A DNA stretch of 64,000 nucleotides from Prostheceraeus crozeri (Eukaryota; Platyhelminthes; Polycladida; Euryleptidae), in assembly GCA_907163375.1 (NCBI GenBank), contig CAJQUW010011512.1, forward strand, positions 310,001-374,000, written 5' to 3'. Below the pieces are notes generated by a model. The model was not told where the DNA came from, ran no database searches, and saw nothing but the letters and a program-made list of their open reading frames with translations. Shown here in pieces: positions 1 through 40,998 of this stretch (position 1 is the stretch's first letter; each line of letters starts with the position of its first letter). The position numbers and the translations under genes were made by a program.

Positions 1-1993
1 CCTTGGAATCAATTTCCACTACACCTTCCACTGAGCAATGCAGTATTGATGTTTTCAAGTGGCTTGCGACCATGTCAATGGTCAGTTTGTTTAATATGCT
101 GAGAAGATCTGCTATATTCCTTTTGCCTCTTTCCAATAATGAAATTTTCTCTTTCCTTTCTATATGGACTAAGCCCTAGCTCACATAATACACTGACTCC
201 CTTCTATGATAAGGGTGAAAGCTGTGTAAAGAATAGGAAAACGCATTCCTATTCTTTACACATTATTTCACATTATTTATTGTCCTAAGGCGATCAATAA
301 TGACTATTCAATCAAAATCCAGTTTCGTAGACGTTCGGACCCTATCAGCGCTAATTTTGTAACTTTACTTTCGAATCTTCGCGTTGAGATGTTTATTTAC
401 TCGAATTTGCGTACATATGAAACATTGAGTACATTTGAAAGCAACTGCTTTCTGATGAGCATATCAACGCTCTTCTGTTATCTTGCTTTCATAATTAGAG
501 AATCGGCTATTCACAAAATTAGGTGAAGGAGAATAGTGTGGTTGAATATTAGTGTGGTCTAATCATAGGTCGCAATCTGTTTTATTACATGGAAGTGATT
601 GGCGATATTCTCACTATAACTGCAATAAAGCGTGATTCCTGACATGACTAAACACAAGAAGGTTGACTTTAGTTGTAAGTTCTACTCACTAGACGCAACG
701 AACATGGTGCTTTATAAATGTTCAACCATTTTTTCAAAAGAAATTCAAAAACTCGAAAGTGGAAATTTCATTGTAAATTGACGGCAAATAGGAATATCTG
801 GCCTATGGAAAATTCGACTTCGATTACAATGAACTTATGACTGGAGACAATTGGAAAGAAAAATCTGGACATTCGAGGAAGTTTGACGTAGATAATCGGG
901 AACTTGAAGCGGAAAATAATTGAAAAAACCTGAAGAAATTCGAACTTGAAAGATCTCGAAGTTCTCGGTCAGTCTAGCGCGAAGACCTTGCCGGAACAAA
1001 GGAGAAGTAAGATTCCTTCGTCTGCGACCCAACCAAGTAGCACAGCTTCATTTTCTTCGATCTTCTGATCAACTTTTCATCAATAAGAAATTGATCATTT
1101 TTTGACGCAAATGTGGTTCCATATCTTTTCCATTATTTGCACTCAATCGTAGTAAAATTTACAATGACAAGACAGAATTTTCAACGCTGTGCATGTGAGT
1201 TCGTCGGGAGCAATCGTTCTCACGGGTGTGCTAATTTTGGTCTTTCTTCTCTAACTCAACTTAGTGTCACTATTGTAAGATTAAATTATTGCGTGTAACG
1301 TTTTGTTGCCAGAACTGTTCGTTAGTAGATTATTGACAAAAATTCCTGTTCACGAGCTCGGGATATCGATAGATATTTTTTGTAATGAGTATTATGGGAA
1401 GCATCGATAGATGAGTCATCCTCGACCTTGATAAACAGATACGAGTCTTGTGGAATGAAAATAGAGAGAGAAAATGAGGAGTACAAGTCACCGAAGGGGA
1501 AGAAATGAATTCGGCCTGATCTCAAGAACATCTCCTTCAGATGTTTTGCATGAAACTGGTCGGAGAGGTTTTTAATCCCATGAGGAGCAGGCAACTTGCT
1601 AGCAAGAATGCTGTGTGAAATGGGGGCAATTAGTCTGATGTATCCTTTTTCAAGAGTTAAATTTTGTTGAATATCAAGTTGATTACATCGTGAACGAGAC
1701 AGGAAAAGAAGGAAGATGATTGGGGGACAAAATAGAAATAAAGGAGCATTTTGGAGACGGAATAATTGAGCGGGAAAAATGGACGGATTGAATTTTGTAG
1801 GTTAGTGCCCTATCCGTTTTTAGAATCGGAAATAGAAAATTAGAAATCTGCGTTACAAATTGCACTCTAGGTTAAGAAAAGAATTTGAATGTGAATGGCT
1901 TTTTATTGCAGTGGGAATTCTGTGTGATGCTCTGAAATCCAAGTTGAATCAGGGATGTCTATGAGTAATCTGTGAGTAACGTTATGTAGAACT
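1..1993. other. AT-rich non-coding DNA, no gene seen
   Basis: The stretch has no open frame with protein-like composition, no splice-bounded exon and no recognisable transposon protein. The only structured item is the short perfect hairpin at 223-262. Open frames here are short, rich in Phe/Leu/Ser/Ile and overlap on both strands, which is what AT-rich non-coding DNA produces by chance. Confidence 0.6.
223..262. repeat. Perfect 17-bp inverted repeat (hairpin, 6-nt loop)
   Basis: The left arm 223-239 (TGTGTAAAGAATAGGAA) is matched exactly by its reverse complement at 246-262, with a 6-nt loop (aacgca). A perfect 17-bp arm pair at this spacing is not expected by chance in 64 kb. It could be a remnant of a small palindromic insertion or a structured element. 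The arms are too short for a typical animal pre-miRNA, and no flanking target duplication was found. Confidence 0.75.
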
Positions 1994-2469
1994 CGGGATA
2001 CACAACTCCCAAAGTGTGGAGAATTGACTGTGGGCTGAAATTTATTATGTTTAATTTGAAGTCATAATGCATTTTTGATATATTGTCCCATTTAGTCTCA
2101 ATTGTGGAATAGTGTATATATATATCATAAAAAACACAAAATATCTGCGATATGGACATGAGCTTCTGATCTTCCTATTGTGCATTTTGTTGAATAAATT
2201 GAGAAATTTGAAGATAAACTTGCAAAAACACATTAAACAGTGGGAGTAAATCGATATGATGACCACCATAAAATCAGTTCGATTAATGCTCATTTTCGAT
2301 GCAATACTTAAGTACCGGCATATGTTATACATGACATTCACGTTAGAATTTCCTTGAAGCTCTAGCGTTCTAATAAACCCAGAATATAAGTGAAACTTTC
2401 TGCATAAATGCTGCGATTTGTGACATTTCAGCTCACAGTCAATTCTCCACAATTTAGTTGTACATCCCG
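1994..2469. repeat. Inverted-repeat pair, about 46-bp arms, inserted beside a mariner fragment
   Basis: The left arm, 1994-2041, contains GTGGAGAATTGACTGTG and continues to GCTGAAAT. Its reverse complement lies at 2425-2469 (ATTTCAGCTCACAGTC then AATTCTCCAC and CATCCCG). The arms differ at a handful of positions near the outer ends. The 383-bp interior is AT-rich and non-coding. The right arm abuts the end of the recognisable transposase frame at 2470, so this may be a small terminal-inverted-repeat element or an internal rearrangement of the mariner-type element. No convincing target duplication was found. Confidence 0.6.
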
Positions 2470-2640
2470 ATCTCACCAATTTGGATCTGGATTGTCCTTG
2501 TCACACAGCTGCATTGCTTAACGAGTCCATTCAATGTAAAACAAGCTTCATCAGACCAAATAATGTTTGGCAGAATTTCCTTATTCTCCAATATCCACTT
2601 CACGAAATCTAGTTTCGTTATTTGAATAAAACAACTTCAC
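2470..2640 (-). pseudogene. Tc1/mariner (IS630-type) transposase fragment, broken
   Basis: The minus-strand translation reads KLDFVKWILENKEILPN and then IIWSDEACFTLNG. This is the pattern of the region around the second catalytic aspartate in DDE/D transposases of the IS630-Tc1-mariner superfamily (W/F-SDE..F.LNG). Only about 50 residues remain. The N-terminal DNA-binding part, the first Asp and the third acid are not recognisable, so the gene is dead. Upstream on the minus strand, an end-like string GTGTGAGTCATAAAG lies at 3091-3105, next to a TA at 3108-3109. It resembles Tc1/mariner terminal repeats, which would put that end of the element near 3109. The inverted repeat at 1994-2469 interrupts or replaces the other side. 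Confidence 0.6.
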
Positions 2641-4044
2641 GAGAGTCAATCTCATTTATAAATCAAACGAAACTGACAGAGGCAGGAACACTACTGAACT
2701 TTTGGTTTTGGAGGCTGTTCCTCGCACATCAAAGATTAATCGTAGGTTTCAAAATTGAAAGACAAATTCAAAATCTTCGAACAACTTAGATGACTTGCTC
2801 ATGTCCAAATCGTTGCTCGAACAAAATCGATTGTTGAATCATTCTGCAGTCAAATCAAATCACTGAACAAAAGCAAAATGACAAATCATGCAATAAACAA
2901 TCTTAGGTTTTCATGTACTAATTGATAATTCTATATGATTTAAATTTTAAAATTTTAGGGGTGTAATTTCTAGAGGGACGAAAGATTTTATATAAAACAA
3001 AATCCTAAGTTTTGACGAACAAAATGACATTAAAATGATTGTCGAATATTTTATTCAGAAAGCACAGCACATTTTCAAAGTTTTGCGCACTTTATGACTC
3101 ACACTGTACATCTATGGCTGGATGCACCAAAAGTACTATATTATGTCCACAGTAAAAATACAAATGTAATCGTTAGCTACGGAACAGTATTGCATCAACT
3201 ATAGATAATTATCACTTGGAGTTTGCCAAGTCGTGTGAGACTGATTAATCCTGGCAAGATTAGACGTTTATATGCTTAATAGAAAATAGCGGCAACTACA
3301 CTCTATGTTGCGTTCATAGAAGAACTATAAATACGTGGTGTAGTTAACTGTGCATCTATTGATGTACGTATCAATTAATGCAGACCACTAGGCTTACAAC
3401 GTTTTCAAAATTTTGTCAAATCTGCATACCTGCATTCGCTGCAGGCTACTTGAGGGCGCAATTGGTTAATTAATTGGTCAGCACCGTTCGAGACCCCTGA
3501 AAGGTAAGTCGCTACGCTAAAGTACATCGACCACTAGTTCACTTCATCGGTCACCTCATCCAAATCGTTCTGCAATTTCCTGATCATATTGTATATTAAG
3601 AATTCAATAAATAATAGCGGCTTTTATGAAGAAATTGTTGAGTAATAAGAAAAATGTAGTTCTGTTTGCCGAAACATGTTTCTGGTCGTCCAGGGAGTCG
3701 CTTCTTACTCTCCTTGGGAGCTTTAGGGCACTGAAGGATTCGCAGGTAAGCTGCAGGTGGTCCTTTATGACTGTCGTCAAGCGTGTTTGTCACACGAACC
3801 AACACGCATGCCTTACATGATGGGAGAATGTTGCGTAGGTGTGTTTAGGAAGTTCGATATGATTATTATTAGTCAGCTATTGACCTGTCGAATTTGTGAT
3901 CCTCAGGATGAATATGCTTGACTTGATGACTCCACCTTCTTCGTCAAAAGTAATACGTGTAGCTGCCATCAATCTTTGAAAGTCTCTTTCTTGCGGTGAT
4001 CCATGCAGGTCTCAAATTCGAATTACATGTGTAATTGTGTTGTC
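2641..4044. other. Non-coding DNA, probable remainder of mariner element to about 3109
   Basis: From 2641 to 3109 no protein frame is readable, but the position and the terminal-like string ending near 3109 suggest decayed mariner-type element sequence. From 3110 to 4044 nothing specific was recognised. A gtaagt string near 3502 has no coding frame or acceptor to make it an exon edge. Confidence 0.45.
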
Positions 4045-4240
4045 GGTCTCCGTGGCACAGTGGTTAAGTGTTTGGCCTAGCGAACTTCCTTTCCAGAGGT
4101 CGAGCCCCGAAAGTGTCATTGAAATTCGTCAGGAAGGGTATCCGGAAAAACGTGCCACAACGCTCCAGATAAAAGTCTGACTGTATCAGTACCGTCCAAC
4201 CCCCCCCCCCATTGCGGGGCAGTGGTGACTTTAAACCATC
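4045..4240 (+). repeat. SINE-A, tRNA-derived SINE, near full length
   Basis: The head reads GGTCTCCGTGGCACAGTGG, carrying a pol III A-box-like TGGCACAGTGGTTAAG and a B-box-like GGTCGAGCCCC about 45 bp later. A shared body follows (GTGTCATTG, GGAAGGGTATCCGG, CACAACGCTCCAGAT, TCAGTACCGTCCAA) and then a tail ending GTGACTTTAAACC. The tail contains a 12-13-nt C run near 4200. This is the most complete of the ten copies in the window together with 22235-22422. Confidence 0.85.
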
Positions 4241-4379
4241 ATCATTCATTGCTGTATAGCAAATTCAAGTTTTTCCCATATCTTCGTGTAGCGGTCATTT
4301 CTTGTTTCTATTGACATAGTGCCAGATTGCTGTAGAACGTCTGGTGACCAGCTCAGTAGTGGTAACGCCATATGTTGAA

Positions 4380-4526
4380 AAATCTTTGCCTTTCTTTAGT
4401 GCTGAGTGTCTAGTAAAGATGACAACTTCAAGTTTCAGGACTGACCGTACCAAAGTTTGAACCAAGGTTCGTGTTGGTGACTCTGCCTGACACAGAGTGA
4501 ACACTCGACGGTACCGCTGTTGCTTT
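4380..4526 (-). repeat. SINE-B, tRNA-derived SINE copy
   Basis: Read on the minus strand, the head contains a B-box-like GGTTCAAAC, and the body leads to a conserved segment ending in CACTAAAG. The same order occurs at 16170-16352, 40822-40998 and 55376-55515. This copy is diverged and its body is shortened. Confidence 0.65.
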
Positions 4527-6249
4527 ATATGTGTACATTCATGGGACAAGTGGTAGTCGTCAGAGTTATTGATAGTGACCTACCAAAGGAAGTTGAAAGC
4601 ATTCATTTGGGAAATTGTAATTTTACACTTTTACACTACAAATTTTTTTCATACATTGCAGTATTTCGAAGATCATTAATTGATGCATTAAGATACTGCA
4701 AATAATTAAGTAACGAAATATTATTATCATTCCTTAAGAAAATCAAAACTTCACATGAATTGTAGCACTGACTGTGTAACACAATATCACTTAAATCACC
4801 AGGTAGAAAAAAGACAGTTGTAAAAAAGGTTCGTTTCATATTGCGCTCTGCAATTAGATTCAATCAAGTATTAAGACAATTCTCATTACATTTTCTCTTC
4901 TTAAAGGTCTTGTGTTGTTGATTAGAAATGCCTGACTTGTGAGGACAATTCAATCATCAGCTCAATTTTCTTATTTTAATCATAATTTGTTTGAACTCTT
5001 TTCGCTTAGGATTGTCTATCAGAACGGAACCCGCCACTGGTAGCCAGTGTAGTTAGTAGTTACTTACGTCTGCCTTTGATGTTAAAGTAAATATTGTGCC
5101 AACTAGGAATCTGCTGTGTTTCTCATGATAAACACGTGAATCCATCAAATTGACGTCACAGCCTTCTACACTGATTAAATTTGGACATGAAATATTGTCT
5201 AGTTAATGTCCTTATCAATATTGATCTTCAAGTGTATTTGCAGTCATTTTCAAAAACGGTGGATTTGATTAACTACTTAATTAATTACTTAAAAACTTTA
5301 TCATTGGTGGCATGTGCATTGTGGGATCGATATGATGATTAGCCAAGATCCGTCAATTCTACTTGCCAACAATTTGCGGTTCTCGTGCCAACTGTCAGAG
5401 CGGAAAATCCAATATATCGTTTCTTCCCTGATTTCTCATTCGTTCCACAACAAGCAGAACGTCAATGTCAAATAGTGACTGCTGTATTACCTGTGAGGGG
5501 TAATTTATATGCATTTGCAACCCAAATGACAAAAACATCTTTCGTAAAATGTTTGCTAAAGCTCCGTTAGAATTAACATTATCCTGCCGAATTGATGGAA
5601 ATTCGATCTTTCTGTAGCTGTAAGTTCACAAGCTTGTGATGATGATTATTATTTTGAAGTCTTTTGATGCATTGAGCGACGCTCATTAATTTCCAGATTG
5701 ATTGCTAGCAGAATATTGCTATTTTCCTGAGTATATTTTGATGGTACGATTAAGTCACCTTTATTCCACTGTTCGATTCTGCTAGGTTTCTCATCTTTGT
5801 ATTCGCCCACGCTTCGTTTAGCTTTCATATTATTGCTGTGTCAGTATTGTGCATGATAAATAACATAAACACATTGGAAGAAGGCACTTTTTGTTAACAG
5901 TGCTACTCGATAGTATTTAGGAAAAGAAACGAAGTTATCTATATTCTTTGTTCACTGTCATTATTATTTAATTATTTTATTTCATGCAATGAAGTATATT
6001 CGAACGTGTTTAAAGCCGTCTCATTGCTAGTAATTGAAGTTTAAACATTTTGTTTAAACAGTTGAGACCACCACACATTTTATGTAGGTGGTGCAATGAA
6101 TATTGAGTCAGTTCACGAAATACCTATTTTTCAAAAAAATCATCTTAACTGTTATGTATTCTAACCTGCATGTACATTCAGCGGATTAATTTTGCTTGAT
6201 AAACTTAAGTGGAAGAATGTGATCTCACATCGTCGATTCACTTACGCAG
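4527..6249. other. Non-coding DNA, nothing recognised
   Basis: No transposon protein, exon or structured repeat was recognised. The composition is AT-rich throughout. An 8-nt or longer G run near 6260 marks the start of the GC-richer LINE fragment that follows. Confidence 0.5.
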
Positions 6250-16169: not shown

Positions 16170-16352
16170 GCGGAGTCTTCCTTCCTTATTTTCTATTTAT
16201 CTTTCTTTTTGTCCCACTTTCATTATTTTGTGCTGAGTGCTTGGCAAGAATGCAATGTACCTATTTTGAAGTCTTAGGTGTGACTTGACCAAGTTTTGAA
16301 CCCAGGTCTCCCGGACGCAGAGGGAACACTTCATCACACGGGAAGCCTTGTT
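16170..16352 (-). repeat. SINE-B, tRNA-derived SINE copy, split from its right flank by a transposon
   Basis: On the minus strand the tRNA-like head carries CCGGGAGACCTGGGTTCAAA, whose GGTTCAAAAC part is B-box-like. It is followed by the shared body (ACTTCAAAATAGGTAC and CTTGCCAAGCACTCAGCAC on the minus strand). The copy ends next to gttggaac, the target site of the element at 16361-17332. Confidence 0.75.
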
Positions 16353-23535: not shown

Positions 23536-25523
23536 ACACAGGCCGTTGGCAATATTGGAAATTCTATCTTATTTCAGGTAATAAAGCATGCGACTGATGT
23601 CTCTCACATTATGTATGTCGAACATATAAAGGCATAAATGTTGATCCATTTAAACAGATTGCTTGTTTAAACGAACTTTTTGACCGGAAACTTTTGGGTC
23701 AAGATTGCGAAGCAACTGCGAGTCAACGACTAAATTTGGCAACCGAAGGAAAGAGGAGATCAATGCGACTCCAATGCTACCACTTTTCTGAATAAGAGCT
23801 TCAATTTTTAAAAATAGCTCGCGTATGCAAATGTGTCAATGCATGAGTCTATCTTTATTGACTATCAAAGCCAATATTTATTTGCTTTATATAAGTAAGC
23901 TATTTTAGGATCATCTTTATGATGAAAATGCTGAAAAGTCTAACTAATTATCAAGAAACATATTTTTTTAAAAAAATAGCCGATTTTATGAAATGCCATT
24001 TTTGAAACCTACGCTAGAAGTACTCTCGACTCTCCGATTAGTCCGAATTATTCTAATACATCTCAGGGTTATGTAGGCGGCTTGTTCATCAACCGCTCAT
24101 GACTCCGAGCTATGTCGAAAATTCGCTCCTCCCGCCTACACAGCACATAATCTTTAATAAATCAGTATGTACTGAGAAGCTCAACATTCAACTCTTCCTA
24201 ATTGAATTTTGGATGTGGTACCGATTTTATATTGCATGCATCACAAGAATTTCTAATTATGCATATTAGCAATCAATCAGAAAAACCAGTAACCGCTTCA
24301 TCTGCAAAGGAAAAAGTCGGCAACTGAATGAAAGTTACTTCGGTCAATTGTTAAGGTGTTCACATACTCGCACGTTATATATGAAGACGATTGCCTACGT
24401 ACTCTCGGTATACACATACATTCTTAGAATTTCGTGCTTCATTATATAGGCTGTGCATGAAAGACGATCATTGCTGTCGAGATCACGAAACCTCTCAATT
24501 TCAACACCAAAACTTTGATTTATGTCAAAGAGTGGACAGATTTCGAGTTTGTTTTCAAGTTAGCGACATCGCAAAATCACTCGCAACTGAAAACTAATTG
24601 TAGCATTTTGCTTATGTTTGAAGATTTTATCTATCAAAGTCGGACGATATACGAAAACTGAATAATCTCAAATCGTCCGTAAATCATTCTTTGGACTTCT
24701 GATACTTTTCAATCATTATTCAATCTTCGCCTCGATTTCGCGTCTATGAAACAGACATGCACATGACAGATCCAACGGACAGCTCGACACACATAATCGT
24801 GAGTGATAATAGCGTTCACCAGTGTTCATCTTCCAAAATGATGTTAAATTTGATGCTCACAAAACTGCAATAATTGACCAATGTCCAGAAGATCTCATCA
24901 CTATTTCAGCATCCATGGTTCCGTCATCAAACACCAACGCAGACTTTTGGTGCAGAGACTTTACAGAGATTTACCGCCTTTCCTTTCAATGTTTCAGTTT
25001 GCTTCATTTTGGGAGAGCCTATACACGTATAACACCTTCAGCAACAACCTCTAGCTTTCTCATCCATCCATCGTCATGCAGATCACATTGTCTGCTTTTA
25101 AAAAGAGACAGTCTAACGGTACTCTTTTCTCTCATGGTTCACTAGTAGTCCCGTGAGTAGTCGTTGTGCGACTTAAGTATAACCAATCGGACATCTGTCA
25201 TGTGCAGTTTGAGCTCGTCTTGAGAATTCAGTCCACTGATTTATATTTACAGTGACCTACTACAATTCCTCTAAATCTTATTGTCCAATACGCTCAATAA
25301 ATGCTAGAGCAGATGTTCATGGAGTTTAACCTGACTGGAAGGGATGTTGATTACAAAACTATTGATCGGGTAGAATATAGGTGTTTGAAAATGGAATCCT
25401 GTTGGCATGTTGACCTAAACATATGTCTTAAAGGACTCGCTTGCCTCATTGTACAGCAGCCATCTTTAGATCCCATTACTTTCTGTTATTACTAGCGAGG
25501 CAGTACACTGTAGCCAACATTGG
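23536..25523. other. Non-coding DNA, no gene seen
   Basis: A weak 9-bp inverted pair (TGTAGGCGG at 24074-24082, CCGCCTACA near 24133) encloses a slightly GC-richer patch, but it is too short to call a transposon. TGTAGGCGGCT also occurs near 11944. Otherwise AT-rich, with chance frames. Confidence 0.45.
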
Positions 25524-25636
25524 TGAACTAGGTCTGCTGATGATTCCTGATAATGAATGAAATAACAGCTATTCAGTTCTGCTCCCATTTTTCAACTGAG
25601 GATGCAACTCAATATTCGATTTTTCTATTTACACAG
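25524..25636 (+). repeat. Dispersed repeat family F, partial copy
   Basis: It contains CTGCTGATGATTCCTGATA, ATGAAATAACAGC and the conserved ending CAACTGAGGATGCAACTCAA then TATT. It is a shorter neighbour of the copy at 25748-25925, from which it is separated by about 110 bp. Confidence 0.65.
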
Positions 25637-25747
25637 TGTTGCAAAACACAGTGCATTTGTCAGATAGTATTACGAGGGCACATTTCAGCATTGCTTTAAA
25701 AGTAGTGTCTGATCGATGCTCACTGAAATTTCACTCTAAACGTCAGC

Positions 25748-25925
25748 TTTGCATCTCAAATTTACTCTAGGTATGACTGCAACTTTAAATAAGAAGTTGT
25801 TTCGATGTTGAGAGGGAATTAGACCCTCTGATGATTCTAATATTGGATGAGATGGCAGTTATTGGGATTTGTTCCCATTTTTCAGTTGGGGATGCAACTC
25901 AATTTCTAATTTTCTTTTTGCAACA
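25748..25925 (+). repeat. Dispersed repeat family F, longer copy
   Basis: It carries GCATCTCAAATTTACTCT, GACTGCAACTTTAAATAAG, GATGTTGAGAG, TGATGATTCTAATATTGG and CCCATTTTTCAGTTGGGG followed by ATGCAACTCAA. The same order is present at 52535-52700 and, reversed, at 7094-7300. The block order defines a unit of roughly 180-200 bp. Confidence 0.7.
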
Positions 25926-26840
25926 TTGTGTAGCATGATTTATTATGTCCATTCGGTTCTTTGAATGCCACTGTTCTGTGTCAACATTGACCACTACTCA
26001 GTGTATGTAGCTGCAAGCTCTTTTCTGCTCTCATAATAAAGCTATTATTCTATGAATATGCTTGCTATCAAATACTAGAAGCTGGTCTTTCAAGTTGTCG
26101 GTTTTCCTCGGGTCTCAAAGTTTTGTTGAACCAGGGCCAATCCATCAACAAATCGACAACAGACGTTTGAGACCGGCAACCTTTCAAGCTAAGTCAAACC
26201 CCTCGACCCATTGAAAATTGCGAGGTGTTGGATGCCTTTATATTTCCAATACAAATTCAGAAAACCGAACGCAACTGAATGCAAATTAACCAACGAAAAC
26301 TTTAACCTGGAATTCCTGGTACTATTTTCCCATGTACTGAAGCACTATACTTTAATGAAATATAGTTCTTTCGAAAGGCACTTGTTTATTTAATCTCTTC
26401 GTAGCAAAATAGTTCCTCAATCACCTTCACAAGCCACGCAAGTGATTAATGAGATACCAATCCTAACTAAAGATGTGTGTGGGCTTCAATCAGCATTTAT
26501 AAATGATTATTTCTCAATTTATTGTCGACTATTGACTTGATCGCGCTTTGTCTTTATTACACGCAGATCTGATGCCAAATATAAAAAATCTTCTGCCGAC
26601 GCTAGATTTTGCGATATGAAAGCGCATGCAGCAAACCAGTGAATGTCATTACTGCTGTTTGATGTATCTTGATATAGCGCAACAATGCGCCATTTGATTT
26701 CTCCTTTCATTCGACCCACTATACCGTTTCAAAAGCAAAATCCCCATCGTTAAACTTCTTATCATCCAGACATAACAAAATGGCTGAGATAACTATAAGG
26801 AGATATTTATAGCAGTTTGCCAGCATTCAGCTGTTCATAA
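25926..26840. other. Non-coding DNA, nothing recognised
   Basis: AT-rich flank of the large palindrome. No exon signal or repeat was recognised. Confidence 0.5.
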
Positions 26841-27597
26841 TAGTCCGGGAGGTACTGACACTTCCTAAATTCGCGCACAAAGGGCTTAATAGCATGGATT
26901 TTCAGATCTTGAAGCGCTGAATACAAAAATCAAATTCTTGACTGTCACAGTCAGTCCGTTCGGTTATAGGTAAGGCTAAAGGATTCCCATTGGAATCCAA
27001 TGGTAAAATTCGAGAAATATCTATGGATTGTGAAACACTTGGCAATTTTCGTACATTTTCTTTTGCAGAAAAGAAACCATTTATCAGAATGCCATGAACT
27101 TTGAAACATGATTGAGTTCAGAACATCAACTTCGATATAAAAGTTGAAGTGAGTCACATGATTCAGTATTTGATGTCTGAGAGTCTCTACAAAATGAATA
27201 AATTTCACGTTTTAACTTAATTCTGGCGATTTCACTCATTTTGTAGAGGCTCTCAGACATCAGATACTGAATCATGTGACTCACTTCAACTTTTATATCG
27301 AAGTTGATGTTCTGAACTCAATCATGTTTCAAATTTCATGGCATTCTGATAAATAGTTTCTTTTCTGCAAAAGAAAATGTACGAAAATTGCCAAGTGTTT
27401 CACAATCCATAGATATTTCTCGAATTTTACCATTGTATTCCAATGGGAATCCTTTAGCCTTACCTATAACCGAAAGTGACTGGCTGTGACACTTAATAAT
27501 TTGATTTTCGTATTCAGCGCTTCAAGATCTGAAAATCCATGCTATTAAGCCCTTTGTGCGCGAATATAGGAAGAAAGTGTCAGTAGCTCCCGGACTA
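26841..27597. mobile_element. Foldback palindrome: 357- and 362-bp arms, 38-bp loop, TA flanks
   Basis: The left arm 26841-27197 is the reverse complement of 27236-27597. By eye the outer 110 bp differ at about ten positions plus one 5-nt gap. The inner 245 bp, including GCTAAAGGATTCCCATTGGA and TCACATGATTCAGTAT, differ at only about five. The outer ends read TA-GTCCGGGAG at the left and CTCCCGGAC-TA at the right, so a TA target duplication with inverted ends GTCCGGGAG fits the Tc1/mariner-type MITE model. There is no coding capacity. A transcript from either strand would fold into a hairpin of more than 350 bp, a good substrate for Dicer-type processing. Gene conversion or youth would explain the arm identity. 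Confidence 0.9.
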
Positions 27598-28318
27598 CGA
27601 TGTGTGATTGCACAGAAAGAATTTATGACTAGATCGAATATTTAACAAAGAGATTATTGAGCATTGGTGACTTTTCTAAGCGGTAGCAGGACTCTCAGTT
27701 TCTCAGATTTGACTTGTCTTTCTCTCATGTTACAAAACTATTTGCCTTTTTTTGGTCTAAAACAATCTAAAGCATGTGTCAACTTAACATATCAAGAAAG
27801 ATCCGAGGCAAAGTACATACCAGGAATAGAAGAACCATTTAAAGCATCCGGAAGGAAAGTGTTCGGTTTGCGATTGATTTTCATTTTTAGCTCAGGTTTT
27901 TTCTGTTGCCAGTCAAGTCAGCATCTAAGCCTTGAAAATCCCGAGAATTATTAGTGTCATTGTCATTATGAAGCTGTTGAATATCAGATATTGGCGAAGA
28001 AGTTTTGTTATCGTTAGTGCACCTTACCAATGGGAGATGTCCAATGAAAATCATTGAGTTCTGAGGGAGTCAACTGGTCACTTGCCTTAAATCCGTGTAC
28101 ACGATCGCCTAGGAAACTATACGTCATATATGAGTCTTTACACCACGTTTAAAATTAAGTCGTGGAACTCCTAAATTTTAGATGGGCCCATGAATAAAAT
28201 GGAACACTGCTAGGTGATACGTGACGTGTATGTAAATAGAAAAAGATTTTTATATATAATTTATTCATTCGAATAATGATCAAATTTAATGGATCTGATG
28301 TAAAGTATTATTGAAATC
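27598..28318. other. Non-coding DNA, nothing recognised
   Basis: It contains a 97-codon open frame (27664-27954, +) with no recognisable domain, no splice context and ordinary AT-rich codon use. I do not call it a gene. Confidence 0.45.
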
Positions 28319-28718
28319 GGTGCTTCTATATCCCCCCACATTTCTGTTGTTGACACCGGGAAGTGTTGCATCGTCAACGATCTTCTCTTGCTACAACTCT
28401 ATGTCTCAATAACGTTGCATAGCATTGAGTGTGTAAAATTCCTCTTATCTGACTTGTAGAACATTTACAGCCTCAGAATTAGACAACTGCTCGTCTTTAT
28501 CTGTAGACAACAATCACACGAAGTTCATGATCACAGCTGTATCTTGCATTCTAACTGAGTATCCAAGGGGCCAATCTTTCTTCTCAGTTTCTCAGTCGTG
28601 TTGTAGTGTCACTCAGTGACAGATCAAGTCTTTTCTAGTCCAATGTGACTAACTTTGGCGAAATTTGATGATTTTGGAAAACTTGAAAAAATGTGGTGGG
28701 GGAAAGAATAGAAGTACC
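28319..28718. mobile_element. Non-autonomous DNA transposon with perfect 8-bp TSD, family M3, copy 2
   Basis: The left end is GGTGCTTCTATATCCCCCCA and the right end GGTGGGGGAAAGAATAGAAG followed by TACC. Perfect duplications ttgaaatc lie at 28311-28318 and 28719-28726. The interior shares long segments with 20523-20944, for example TTGTAGAACATTTACAGCCT, CACACGAAGTTCATGATCAC and GTCACTCAGTGACAGATC. The left terminus has decayed more than the right. No transposase is present. Confidence 0.92.
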
Positions 28719-28726
28719 TTGAAATC

Positions 28727-29524
28727 ATTAGATATCTGCATTGCAGATCTTGTCAGGCAACTATATTCAAGTGCTGACACTTTCATGACGTCAGTGATCG
28801 AGCAATTAATTGCTGGCAAATTGTAAGTATCTCAGACAAGTCTGGAACGATGATTTTTTGTCTCATCTGTCTTCTCTCGTCTAGACCTTGTTCTACCATT
28901 GTCGCTTTCGGTCAGACCGGAATCTAGCGCCCTCCACTCACAAGACACTCTTGTTGACCCCTCGACTACGGGTGCTTCTGCTTGCATCATATAAGTTCTT
29001 AGAAGATTTTGGGGTCTTATTAATAGCATCGAGGAAATTGGGCGTGTCCGCATGCATTCATTCAATAACTTCTCGATAGATCCTACATAAGGATAAATAT
29101 AGAAGTTTCGCACTCTAACTTATCAATAACATTCATAAATCTGTAGATGTCCTCTTGCTCTTGAGGAACTTAAAAGAACAAAGTCGTTTAGGTGATTGTT
29201 TTTCCTACAGAATCAATAAAGCTGCTCAACTGATGTTATCAGTGTCAATCTGGATGAATAGAATGTCTTGGTTATGATTTCGTCACTGTGTGGAATATCC
29301 TGCTGAAGATTATCCATAAAGCCTTAATGATCCCTAAATTAGGAACTTGTGTAAACTGATTGCGCGTTTTTGAGACAACAAAATTATAGCCAGCCAAAAA
29401 TAGAAAAGTTCATTTAGAACGTGCTTGCTGATAATAGAAATGCAATATTATCGATTCTGCGAGTAGACGCTCATAAAAAGACCTCACTCACTTTGTTAAT
29501 TTGTATGAGATGTTGAAAGGTGAA
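28727..29524. other. Non-coding DNA, nothing recognised
   Basis: Frames of 60-90 codons overlap on both strands (28832-29113) without a domain. No repeat was recognised. Confidence 0.45.
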
Positions 29525-29726
29525 GCTTTACCGTCACTGCTCTTCCATCGGGTGCTTGAATTGTGCTGACCTATGTCAGCACAGGCACAGGCACAGGCTT
29601 TCATGGAAAATTGCGATACTTTTAGTCCGGATGCAATTCCTACCGACTTCGAGTGATGCTTTCGGAGCTCAATCTCCTTACCAAAAGGTCGCTAGGCCAA
29701 GCACTTGAACACTACCACGAAGACCA
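29525..29726 (-). repeat. SINE-A, reverse, diverged, with a small CAGGCA expansion
   Basis: Head and body are recognisable from GTCCGGATGCAATTCC, GGTCGCTAGGCCAAGCACTT and CACGAAGACC. The B box is mutated (GAGCTCAATCTCC on +). Near 29580 the segment CAGCACAGGCACAGGCACAG is a local short-unit expansion not seen in other copies. Confidence 0.8.
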
Positions 29727-31099
29727 TCATGAGAGGCTGTATTTAACGAAATGTAGCATTATCATTTGCAGGTTGAATATCTAGGAATATTGAAAAACTG
29801 TGGCAGTTTCATACTTTGCATTCATCATTTTTAGGAAGCTCAACATGTTTTACATCATTGTACTGCTTGTATTGTCATTGAAGTGACACGGTCACAGCAA
29901 CAACTTTAGTTCAAAATAATGCAACCCCTGAAGTTAATGAATCGAAAAGTGTGACCAAATAATCTAAAAATCACTTGATATGAGGTCAAATAATCACAGA
30001 GTATGGCTTGTGGTCTGCCAAAAAGGTTTCACAAAACTGGAAATTTTCGTTCAATTGAATCACCTGTTGACGGGAAGTTTGGAGACATAGCTTTTCATAA
30101 CAATACAAACAATATCTTGACGCAACTATTGTGTTATATTCCGTTGTTTGAAAATTAAATCATTGACCCTGAACGTTTTTACTCATAAACGACCACTCAA
30201 TAATATTAAATGTAATGCAATACAGTCTAAACTCCAAGCCTAAATTTATAATACAAAATACATACACCGTATACAAATATAGATGTATGTAACATACTGA
30301 GAACGACGTAATCTTTTGTTGTCTCTCTTGTGGCAACTCTATCATTCGGCAAAACAACATGAGAGCACAACAAAGAGCAACACAGAGTTCCGAAGTTGAG
30401 GATTGAGAAATAGAACTCTAAAGTGACTTCTGAAATTAATTATTATTTTCAAATCAAGTACTGCAATCTCATTCTACACTGAAAATATTTTCATTTCGTT
30501 GTTTATAGCGTTGTTGCATTTTTGGCACTCAATTCTGCTCTATAAAATCCGCGGCGAAGAATTGGGAATTCAGAATTTGGGAGACTTCTGTGTTGTCCCA
30601 TCTTCTTGAGTTGTTGAGGCTAAATTCTGGTCTGGAGAATTTTCATTCTTTGCAAAAGTCAGACAAGGATTTAATGCGTTTCAACGGAAATAGGAACAAC
30701 AATTTTGGGGAATTGTTCGAATAAGAGAGGATTGTATCGTGAGATAGCGTACGTTTAAGCTGATACTGATGGGATATCGCAGAACTAAAAATGAAAAGAC
30801 TAAAGATATTCGAATTCTTCTCATTTTCGTCAGCAATGGCAAACAGGAGAATAAAACTGTCAATTACTTCACTGACTCGATTGGAGTGACAAATGCGAAA
30901 ATCAATAAACCATGAAATACGTGTGTGGTCTAGCACATAGAATAATTTGTTGATGAAGCAGCAAACATTGATATAATTTCATCGAAGAGGCTAATTGTCA
31001 TAATTATGCCTTCAAATAGTTGTAATTTTGCAAATGAAATGGAAGAGAAACTGTATACCAGATAATCCATGATTACGCAGTATTTACGTTTTTAGTTAA
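29727..31099. other. Non-coding DNA, nothing recognised
   Basis: AT-rich, with no exon, repeat or transposon protein seen. Overlapping minus-strand frames at 30643-30936 are Ser/Phe/Leu-rich chance frames. Confidence 0.5.
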
Positions 31100-40821: not shown

Positions 40822-40998
40822 CACGGAGCCTTTCTTCCATGTGGCCGAGTTTTCATTTATCCTCTTATTTTGTACTGAGTCTCTAGCTAGAATGCAGACT
40901 GTACCTATTTTAGAAGCCTTTGGTTTGACCCGACCAAGCTTTGAACCAAGGTCTCCCGGACGTAAGGCGAACACTCAATCACAAGGCCACAGCACCGG
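40822..40998 (-). repeat. SINE-B, tRNA-derived SINE, fullest copy
   Basis: On the minus strand CTGTGGCCTTGTGATTGAGT is an A-box-like head and CCGGGAGACCTTGGTTCAAA carries the B box, about 35 bp apart. The body follows as TCTAAAATAGGTACAGTC, GACTCAGTACAAAATAAGAG and CTCGGCCACATGGAAG. It is the best copy for defining the family of about 175 bp. Confidence 0.78.

Follow-up and report, generated by a model that had tools for sequence, protein, structure and literature searches.

How do the two arms of a very long inverted repeat come to be, and stay, almost identical? To our knowledge, the upkeep of near-identical long arms in foldback elements is usually put down to unspecified recombination. 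The question is raised here by a near-perfect palindrome of 757 bp at positions 26841-27597 of the window, by which we mean the whole stretch of 64,000 nucleotides that was analysed (C9554:310001-374000). Three inverted matches within the window, namely 26959-27202/27231-27474 (244 nt, 97%), 26861-26956/27478-27573 (96 nt, 94%) and 26836-26866/27572-27602 (31 nt, 87%), place the borders of a left arm of about 362 nt (26841-27202, plus strand), an asymmetric spacer, or loop, of 28 nt at the dyad (27203-27230) and a right arm of about 367 nt (27231-27597, minus strand). The arms are 94-97% complementary, and the 757-nt single strand folds at -596 kcal/mol as against -165 (sd 6) for 20 shuffles. 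By its inverted-arm matches and folding energy, the palindrome reported in an earlier note on this DNA is real, with two long arms and a short loop, although the lengths given there (357, 362 and 38 nt) have been revised. The left terminus is TAGTCCGGGAG on the plus strand (26841-26851) and the right terminus is TAGTCCGGGAG on the minus strand (27587-27597), both of the 'TC' type; many other copies have TAGGACGGGAG at one end. Read along the sequence, the element thus runs TAGTCCGGGAG...CTCCCGGACTA, with its ends next to TA as the note had described.

The inverted repeats make up nearly the whole element, which is the feature typical of foldback elements. No direct repeat families, such as the internal tandem repeats present in the arms of some but not all foldback elements, were found inside 26841-27597 in a repeat search of 25000-30000. 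Upstream lie direct copies at 25525-25639 and 25816-25929, about 290 bp apart and alike over 22 and 93 nt (77% and 72%). No open frame of at least 120 aa overlaps the palindrome. Between the arms of the window copy (L008), alignment positions 7-355 show 13 mismatches in addition to the difference in arm length, of which the outer 110 bp hold 6 and the inner 245 bp hold 7; the contrast between outer and inner parts is thus weaker than the approximately ten against five once noted. Could the locus be a functional hairpin-RNA gene, a putative source of siRNA? A transcript of it would fold almost perfectly, but any complete copy of the family described below would be expected to fold likewise, and 26300-28200 has no match in Rfam; on these sequence grounds such a function appears highly improbable.

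The palindrome is one copy of a large family of non-autonomous, non-coding foldback MITEs. The genome searched comprises 2.05 Gb in 14165 contigs. A second copy within the window was not found by blastn. Of 2318 first-look candidates in the genome, 40 places were scored, comprising the window copy plus 39 nearly full-length others, 91-94% alike and each matched on both strands. Since near-full-length copies exist at 39 other scored places, an assembly artefact, by which the palindrome itself might have been refuted, is very unlikely. Exact 20-mer ends number 853 genome-wide, 522 of the TC type (TAGTCC...) and 331 of the 'GA' type (TAGGAC...), while a control with both patterns reversed gave 0 matches; positions are known for the first 100 places of each list. 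With other copies thus present and arms of nearly the whole length, the earlier identification of a foldback MITE with very long inverted arms holds, and the generic features of a MITE (short, free of a long frame, multicopy, with inverted termini and target duplications) are all found. Two further exact GTCCGGGAG sites in the window, at 16308 and 40953, are not copies of the palindrome; they lie within copies of a dispersed repeat (16273-16341 and 40923-40993) that contains GTCCGGGAG without being the MITE, and which recurs in the right flank of one family copy, L096 (80% and 87%).

Three samples of the family underlie what follows. The first consists of the 40 best matches and is biased towards window-like copies. 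The second and third, of 55 TC-end and 19 GA-end loci, were taken in contig order from the tops of the two lists and require an exact 20-mer end; ends already sampled were passed over, which concerned C843:2020556 and the second C217 end among the TC ends and C472 among the GA ends.

What kind of transposon left these copies? Directly outside the termini, 19 of the 40 best-match copies carry a perfect 3-bp repeat, whereas 5000 permutations of the flanks gave 2.31 on average and never more than 9; the 3-bp outer words of the remainder agree at two of three positions in 12 copies, at one in 6 and at none in 3. Repeats of other lengths stay near their permutation means (2-bp in 6 copies, 4-bp in 2, 5-bp and 6-bp in 0). 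In the end-chosen samples the 3-bp words are identical at all positions in 24 of 38 two-ended copies. The element's own termini include the TA, and the duplicated target consists of the 3 bp adjoining it on the outside. The 19 perfect duplications include ACT, GGA, CTT, GTT, ACA and ATT. PIF/Harbinger elements duplicate 3 bp of the TWA type, a pattern that such words do not fit.

Empty sites, which the earlier note had named as a check, were found for one of two copies. The flanks of L124 (duplication TTT), which is inserted in a dispersed repeat, were joined with one 3-bp copy to form a query of 257; 38 of 40 scored places span the junction (query to 217 of 257), the remaining 2 being the two parts of its own split locus. 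Of these 38 uninterrupted sites, 12 show no net length change and most others are about 11 bp shorter, lengths rather than letters being compared. The same joined-flank test found no uninterrupted site for L096.

These data bear directly on the reading first given to the locus, that of a Tc1/mariner-type MITE with TA target duplications. It is true that TA adjoins GTCCGGGAG at both ends of the window copy and stands at both ends in 34 of 40 copies. However, a TA duplication cannot give a 3-bp direct repeat beyond the TA in 19 of 40 and 24 of 38 copies, the 12 sites without net length change were found with joined flanks that keep one 3-bp copy, and a partner element with the same ends is flanked by TCA on both sides and has no Tc1/mariner domain in Pfam. 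Because the 3-bp repeats exclude a TA duplication, the Tc1/mariner reading is excluded with it, and its remaining probability is next to nil.

The partner was met through the termini. Three of the 55 TC-end loci (L060, L070 and L078) have only their first 42-48 bp in common with the MITE. One of these, when followed further, proved to belong to an element on contig C590 (L090 with L108). It has inverted termini whose 42 bp are 90% and 86% identical to those of the MITE, is bounded by TCA on both outer sides as a 3-bp duplication, and contains an intact open frame of 1507 codons, read as it stands; beyond the ends, no convincing match was found between it and the interior of the MITE arm. In Pfam scans, the only domain of note in the partner protein is DUF6589, which reaches 29.5 bits in a 49% identical paralogue (L130), above the cut-off of 27, and falls below that cut-off in L090 (14.9 bits) and L088 (12.9); it is absent from L128, L129 and the C-terminal 475 residues of the partner protein. 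No known transposase domain was detected by Pfam, nor any helicase or nuclease domain in the 1507-aa frame. Relatives within the genome are many, with 49 matches reported at identities down to 32%. In the PDB, phmmer gave no match to the L090 piece and Foldseek with the second of two AlphaFold models nothing at E<=0.001, both models being poor (pLDDT 44 and 54, from shallow alignments). As termini and duplication length are common to both, we infer that the DUF6589-like protein, of about 1500 aa, is the putative transposase that would move the MITE in trans.

Some further features of these partner-type elements may be recorded. The C590 element harbours a nested stretch of other DNA of about 4.1 kb (L090 reversed offsets 486-4577), whose inverted ends are 437 bp long and 96.6% alike. 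In L088 (C895), direct repeats about 123 bp apart lie at reversed positions 2099-2583 of the partner element, and their copy number apparently differs in L090. A second DUF6589-like lineage, 35-36% identical, is found on C11530, C6271, C10484 and C12886; its open frames span 1448-1501 codons, and the matching part contains no stop.

Other transposons with short duplications offer comparisons. Academ elements have 3-4-bp duplications and encode helicase or nuclease domains; the duplication length of the present family lies in this range, and neither domain was detected in the 1507-aa frame. Zator, as far as the consulted part of its description goes, also makes 3-bp duplications (PMC10045372), and the transposase domain of the Zator/ISAzo13 type was not detected by Pfam in the partner. 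Academ, Zator or another 3-bp family may be the superfamily concerned. A full-text literature search for the word DUF6589, under that name only, gave no match.

The window copy itself has TAA on the left (26838-26840, plus strand) and CGA on the right (27598-27600, plus strand) where the target duplication is expected, and no recognisable duplication. Together with its two TC ends, this is what a chimera of ectopic recombination between two inserted copies might look like, and Galileo inversions provide a precedent for exchanged duplications and chimeric copies, to the extent that the account is available to us (PMC2775673). Five TC/TC copies (L030, L057, L096, L100 and L105) nevertheless have proper 3-bp duplications, so such ends can arise in its absence; for the same reason the notion that every TC/TC copy is a recombination chimera was dropped, and for the window copy alone a chimeric origin is somewhat unlikely.

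If transposition supplies the copies, what keeps the arms alike? In the best 40 copies the arms diverge by a mean of 4.5% within a copy but by 8.2-8.6% between copies, and the corresponding values for 18 complete end-chosen copies are 7.8% and 11.1-11.3%. The 691-bp copy L067 was left out of this comparison, in which the divergence within a copy is lower than the mean distance of that copy to the others in 55 of 58 cases. Moreover, among derived bases private to one copy, counted in 58 complete copies with 41 further single arms as reference (99 loci), 56 occur in both arms and 137 in one, where 0.35 coincidental double hits would be expected. The arm-to-arm gene conversion invoked by the earlier note therefore finds support in the family, but not in the window copy, in which 0 private changes occur in both arms.

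Conversion does not follow a simple gradient. From end to centre, divergence between the arms of the 58 complete copies is 5.0, 4.7, 5.7, 3.0, 3.8, 4.1 and 5.4% per 51-bp bin, which shows no simple trend across the family; a family-wide conversion gradient from the centre was accordingly given up. The lack of a general gradient tells against a simple centre-outward model, and also against the outer/inner contrast of the window copy being typical. A patchy mismatch pattern at p<=0.05 marks 13 of 54 copies, where chance would give about 3; 8 are cleaner towards the centre and 5 towards the end, and the window copy is not among the 13. The spacer, which occurs in both orientations relative to the ends, points one way in 16 of 31 complete TC/GA copies, the other way in 14 and is undetermined in 1, so that exchange between the arms would also flip the core.

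It could be argued that the arms are alike only through descent from a recent palindromic master, with no copying between arms after insertion, and that subfamilies account for the common changes. Some derived states are indeed common to several copies, and with only 99 loci compared a private change could stem from an unsampled parent. Against this, the 56 private both-arm changes require arm-to-arm transfer somewhere in each lineage, the loop is flipped in 14 of 30 copies, and flanking DNA is inverted in three, as described below; descent from a master alone is unlikely.

Broken copies provide a second kind of evidence. The 74 end-chosen copies comprise 19 complete ones, 19 internally deleted ones with both ends and 36 truncated ones, the last including three partner-type loci and the pair L121/L122, whose members (C728, about 40 kb and 68 kb) are truncated at the same breakpoint between flanks that are 99% alike, a segmental duplication within the contig. 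In 11 of 30 simple truncations the truncation point falls 0-40 bp past the dyad (p 5e-7 against a uniform distribution); the 30 include the three partner-type loci and L121/L122, and 6 complex truncations were left out. Likewise, 15 of 24 internal deletions of at least 60 bp, 3 of which sit in truncated copies, have a breakpoint no more than 50 bp from the dyad (null mean 8.1, p 0.002). Such dyad-centred breaks are what interrupted copying or cleavage of the hairpin tip would leave.

The third kind of evidence lies outside the element. In 2 of 78 two-ended copies the left flank is found inverted on the right, with scores of 202 and 60 as against a permutation maximum of 7. In L023 (C1112) the inverted flank is about 206 bp long with 2 mismatches, and in L026 (C12923) it is 62 bp long with 1 mismatch. 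In genome searches, which may miss common words, both flanks occur only as the two inverted copies, so that insertion of the MITE into a pre-existing palindrome is improbable, and such nesting was rejected as their source. L026 reads as a target word, a TC end, arm 1, the spacer and an arm 2 that now also has a TC end, followed by the inverted left flank, the remainder of the old GA end and the target word again: beyond the inverted flank come 44 bp of the original GA end and then ATT, which also precedes the left end. A displaced end with its target word was looked for in 92 cases lacking a direct duplication, some copies being counted in both directions, and was seen only in L026; no displaced original end was found for L023. 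The flank inversion score of the window copy is 0.

A third case, L131 (C2016), was sought deliberately among the TC ends listed, of which three pairs of exact ends face one another at a distance of no more than 1 kb; neither of the other two pairs, L132 and L057, shows an inverted flank, and in L057 the duplication is normal. The symmetry of L131 extends through essentially all of the 1651 bp examined, yet L131 is not a far-reaching giant palindrome, an idea set aside when no alignment longer than 10 bp was found at about 2 and 5 kb out. Its flank shows 5 mismatches in 440 and its arms 18 in 355, the divergence changing at a point 43 bp in from the end (p 1.5e-4 for the best split and 0.001 when no split is chosen), a pattern consistent with breakage of an arm close to its end followed by outward recopying. 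Arm and flank diverge alike in L023 (p 1.0) and L026 (p 0.28), the expectation if the whole arm was recopied, which neither favours nor excludes the fold-back model set out below. The L131 flank belongs to a dispersed repeat, with its inverted copies 99% alike, a match on C2467 97% alike and the other 38 matches at 71-94%. The C2467 match (417695-418133) may represent either a duplication of this fold-back locus or the parent sequence before rearrangement.

Chimeric reads arise easily at palindromes, and the inverted flanks of L023, L026 and L131 might for that reason be suspected as library or assembly artefacts. However, the inverted copies carry mismatches of their own, though few (2/206, 1/62 and 5/440), L026 runs on into its displaced original end and target duplication, and the arms and flanks of L131 differ in divergence (p 0.001); an artefact is decidedly unlikely.

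Taken together, the window copy is probably a non-autonomous foldback MITE, moved in trans by a DUF6589-like transposon, whose arms template each other by fold-back break repair. Into this reading go observations made on the family, namely its many copies, the 3-bp duplications, the termini in common with the partner, the correlated arms, the two loop orientations, the dyad-centred breaks and the three inverted flanks. The repair of arm breaks by folding back, with an early-stopped version as everyday arm conversion, would account for them as follows. When one arm is broken, its 3' end would fold back on the other arm, copy outwards and rejoin. Short copying would produce arm conversion, exchange between the arms a flip of the loop, copying past the end of the element inverted flanking DNA, and failed repair copies cut near the dyad. 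For L026, the simplest history would be that arm 2 was broken about 44 bp from its end, that its 3' end folded on arm 1, that copying proceeded past the TC end and took in 62 bp of host DNA, and that the new strand was then joined to the other side of the break. The two arms would thus evolve together because each templates the other. Against the fold-back model stand the number of inverted flanks, only 3, one of them (L131) looked for on purpose with its flank within a dispersed repeat, and the window copy, which is free of any footprint, having neither a private both-arm change nor an inverted flank.

Several known systems show parts of this behaviour. Tc6 and similar families of C. elegans are non-coding and palindromic over nearly their whole length; Tc6 is linked to Tc1 and uses TA targets, and the present family is alike in its near-whole palindrome but differs by its 3-bp duplications. 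Galileo of Drosophila, a member of the P superfamily, has long inverted repeats, one- and two-armed copies and a role in rearrangements, and in the portions of the reports available to us an insert in one arm is later found in both, while gap repair and ectopic exchange are given as the origin of defective copies (PMC4168063, PMC2775673). Long inverted arms, one-armed copies and arm-to-arm transfer are thus common to both, whereas Galileo makes 7-8-bp duplications with a P-type transposase, and the MITE family 3-bp duplications with a DUF6589-like protein; an inverted flank with a displaced original end, as in L026, is not mentioned in those portions. In Drosophila virilis, according to similarly partial sources, Tetris is a non-autonomous foldback element that has terminal sequence in common with a MITE, DAIBAM; these have 8-10-bp duplications, internal tandem repeats and no autonomous copy found (PMC4079207), unlike the present family, whose partner has an intact frame in the same genome. 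Overall, within what these sources cover, the MITE family behaves like Galileo and other foldback elements and differs in duplication length, partner protein and readable repair scars.

A likeness for the scars comes from yeast, where the consulted parts of two studies describe inversions made by folding back where a sequence can form a hairpin, and short inverted duplications templated at break sites (PMC7467729, PMC11724301). There a broken end folds back at a hairpin or a stretch of microhomology and is extended, and the product is rejoined (PMC11724301, PMC7467729), as is proposed for the MITE; the yeast events are laboratory ones, whereas the MITE events are deduced from insertions found in a large eukaryotic genome, where the transposon arm would serve as the stem. 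A literature search by title found nothing on such repair scars in foldback elements, and to the extent of that search their novelty is likely but not established.

Through this family, a MITE that duplicates 3 bp is connected with a DUF6589-like protein. Copies of the L026 type, which combine a recopied arm, inverted host DNA, a displaced end and a target duplication, make the fold-back route readable and testable from sequence. It is a tentative proposal, on which the balance tips slightly to the doubtful side, that the family as a whole may constitute a genome-wide natural record of fold-back break repair, in which arms are kept, rebuilt and sometimes enlarged, and new inverted host duplications occasionally arise. 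If true, foldback elements in general would have in fold-back repair a source of their long, homogeneous arms.
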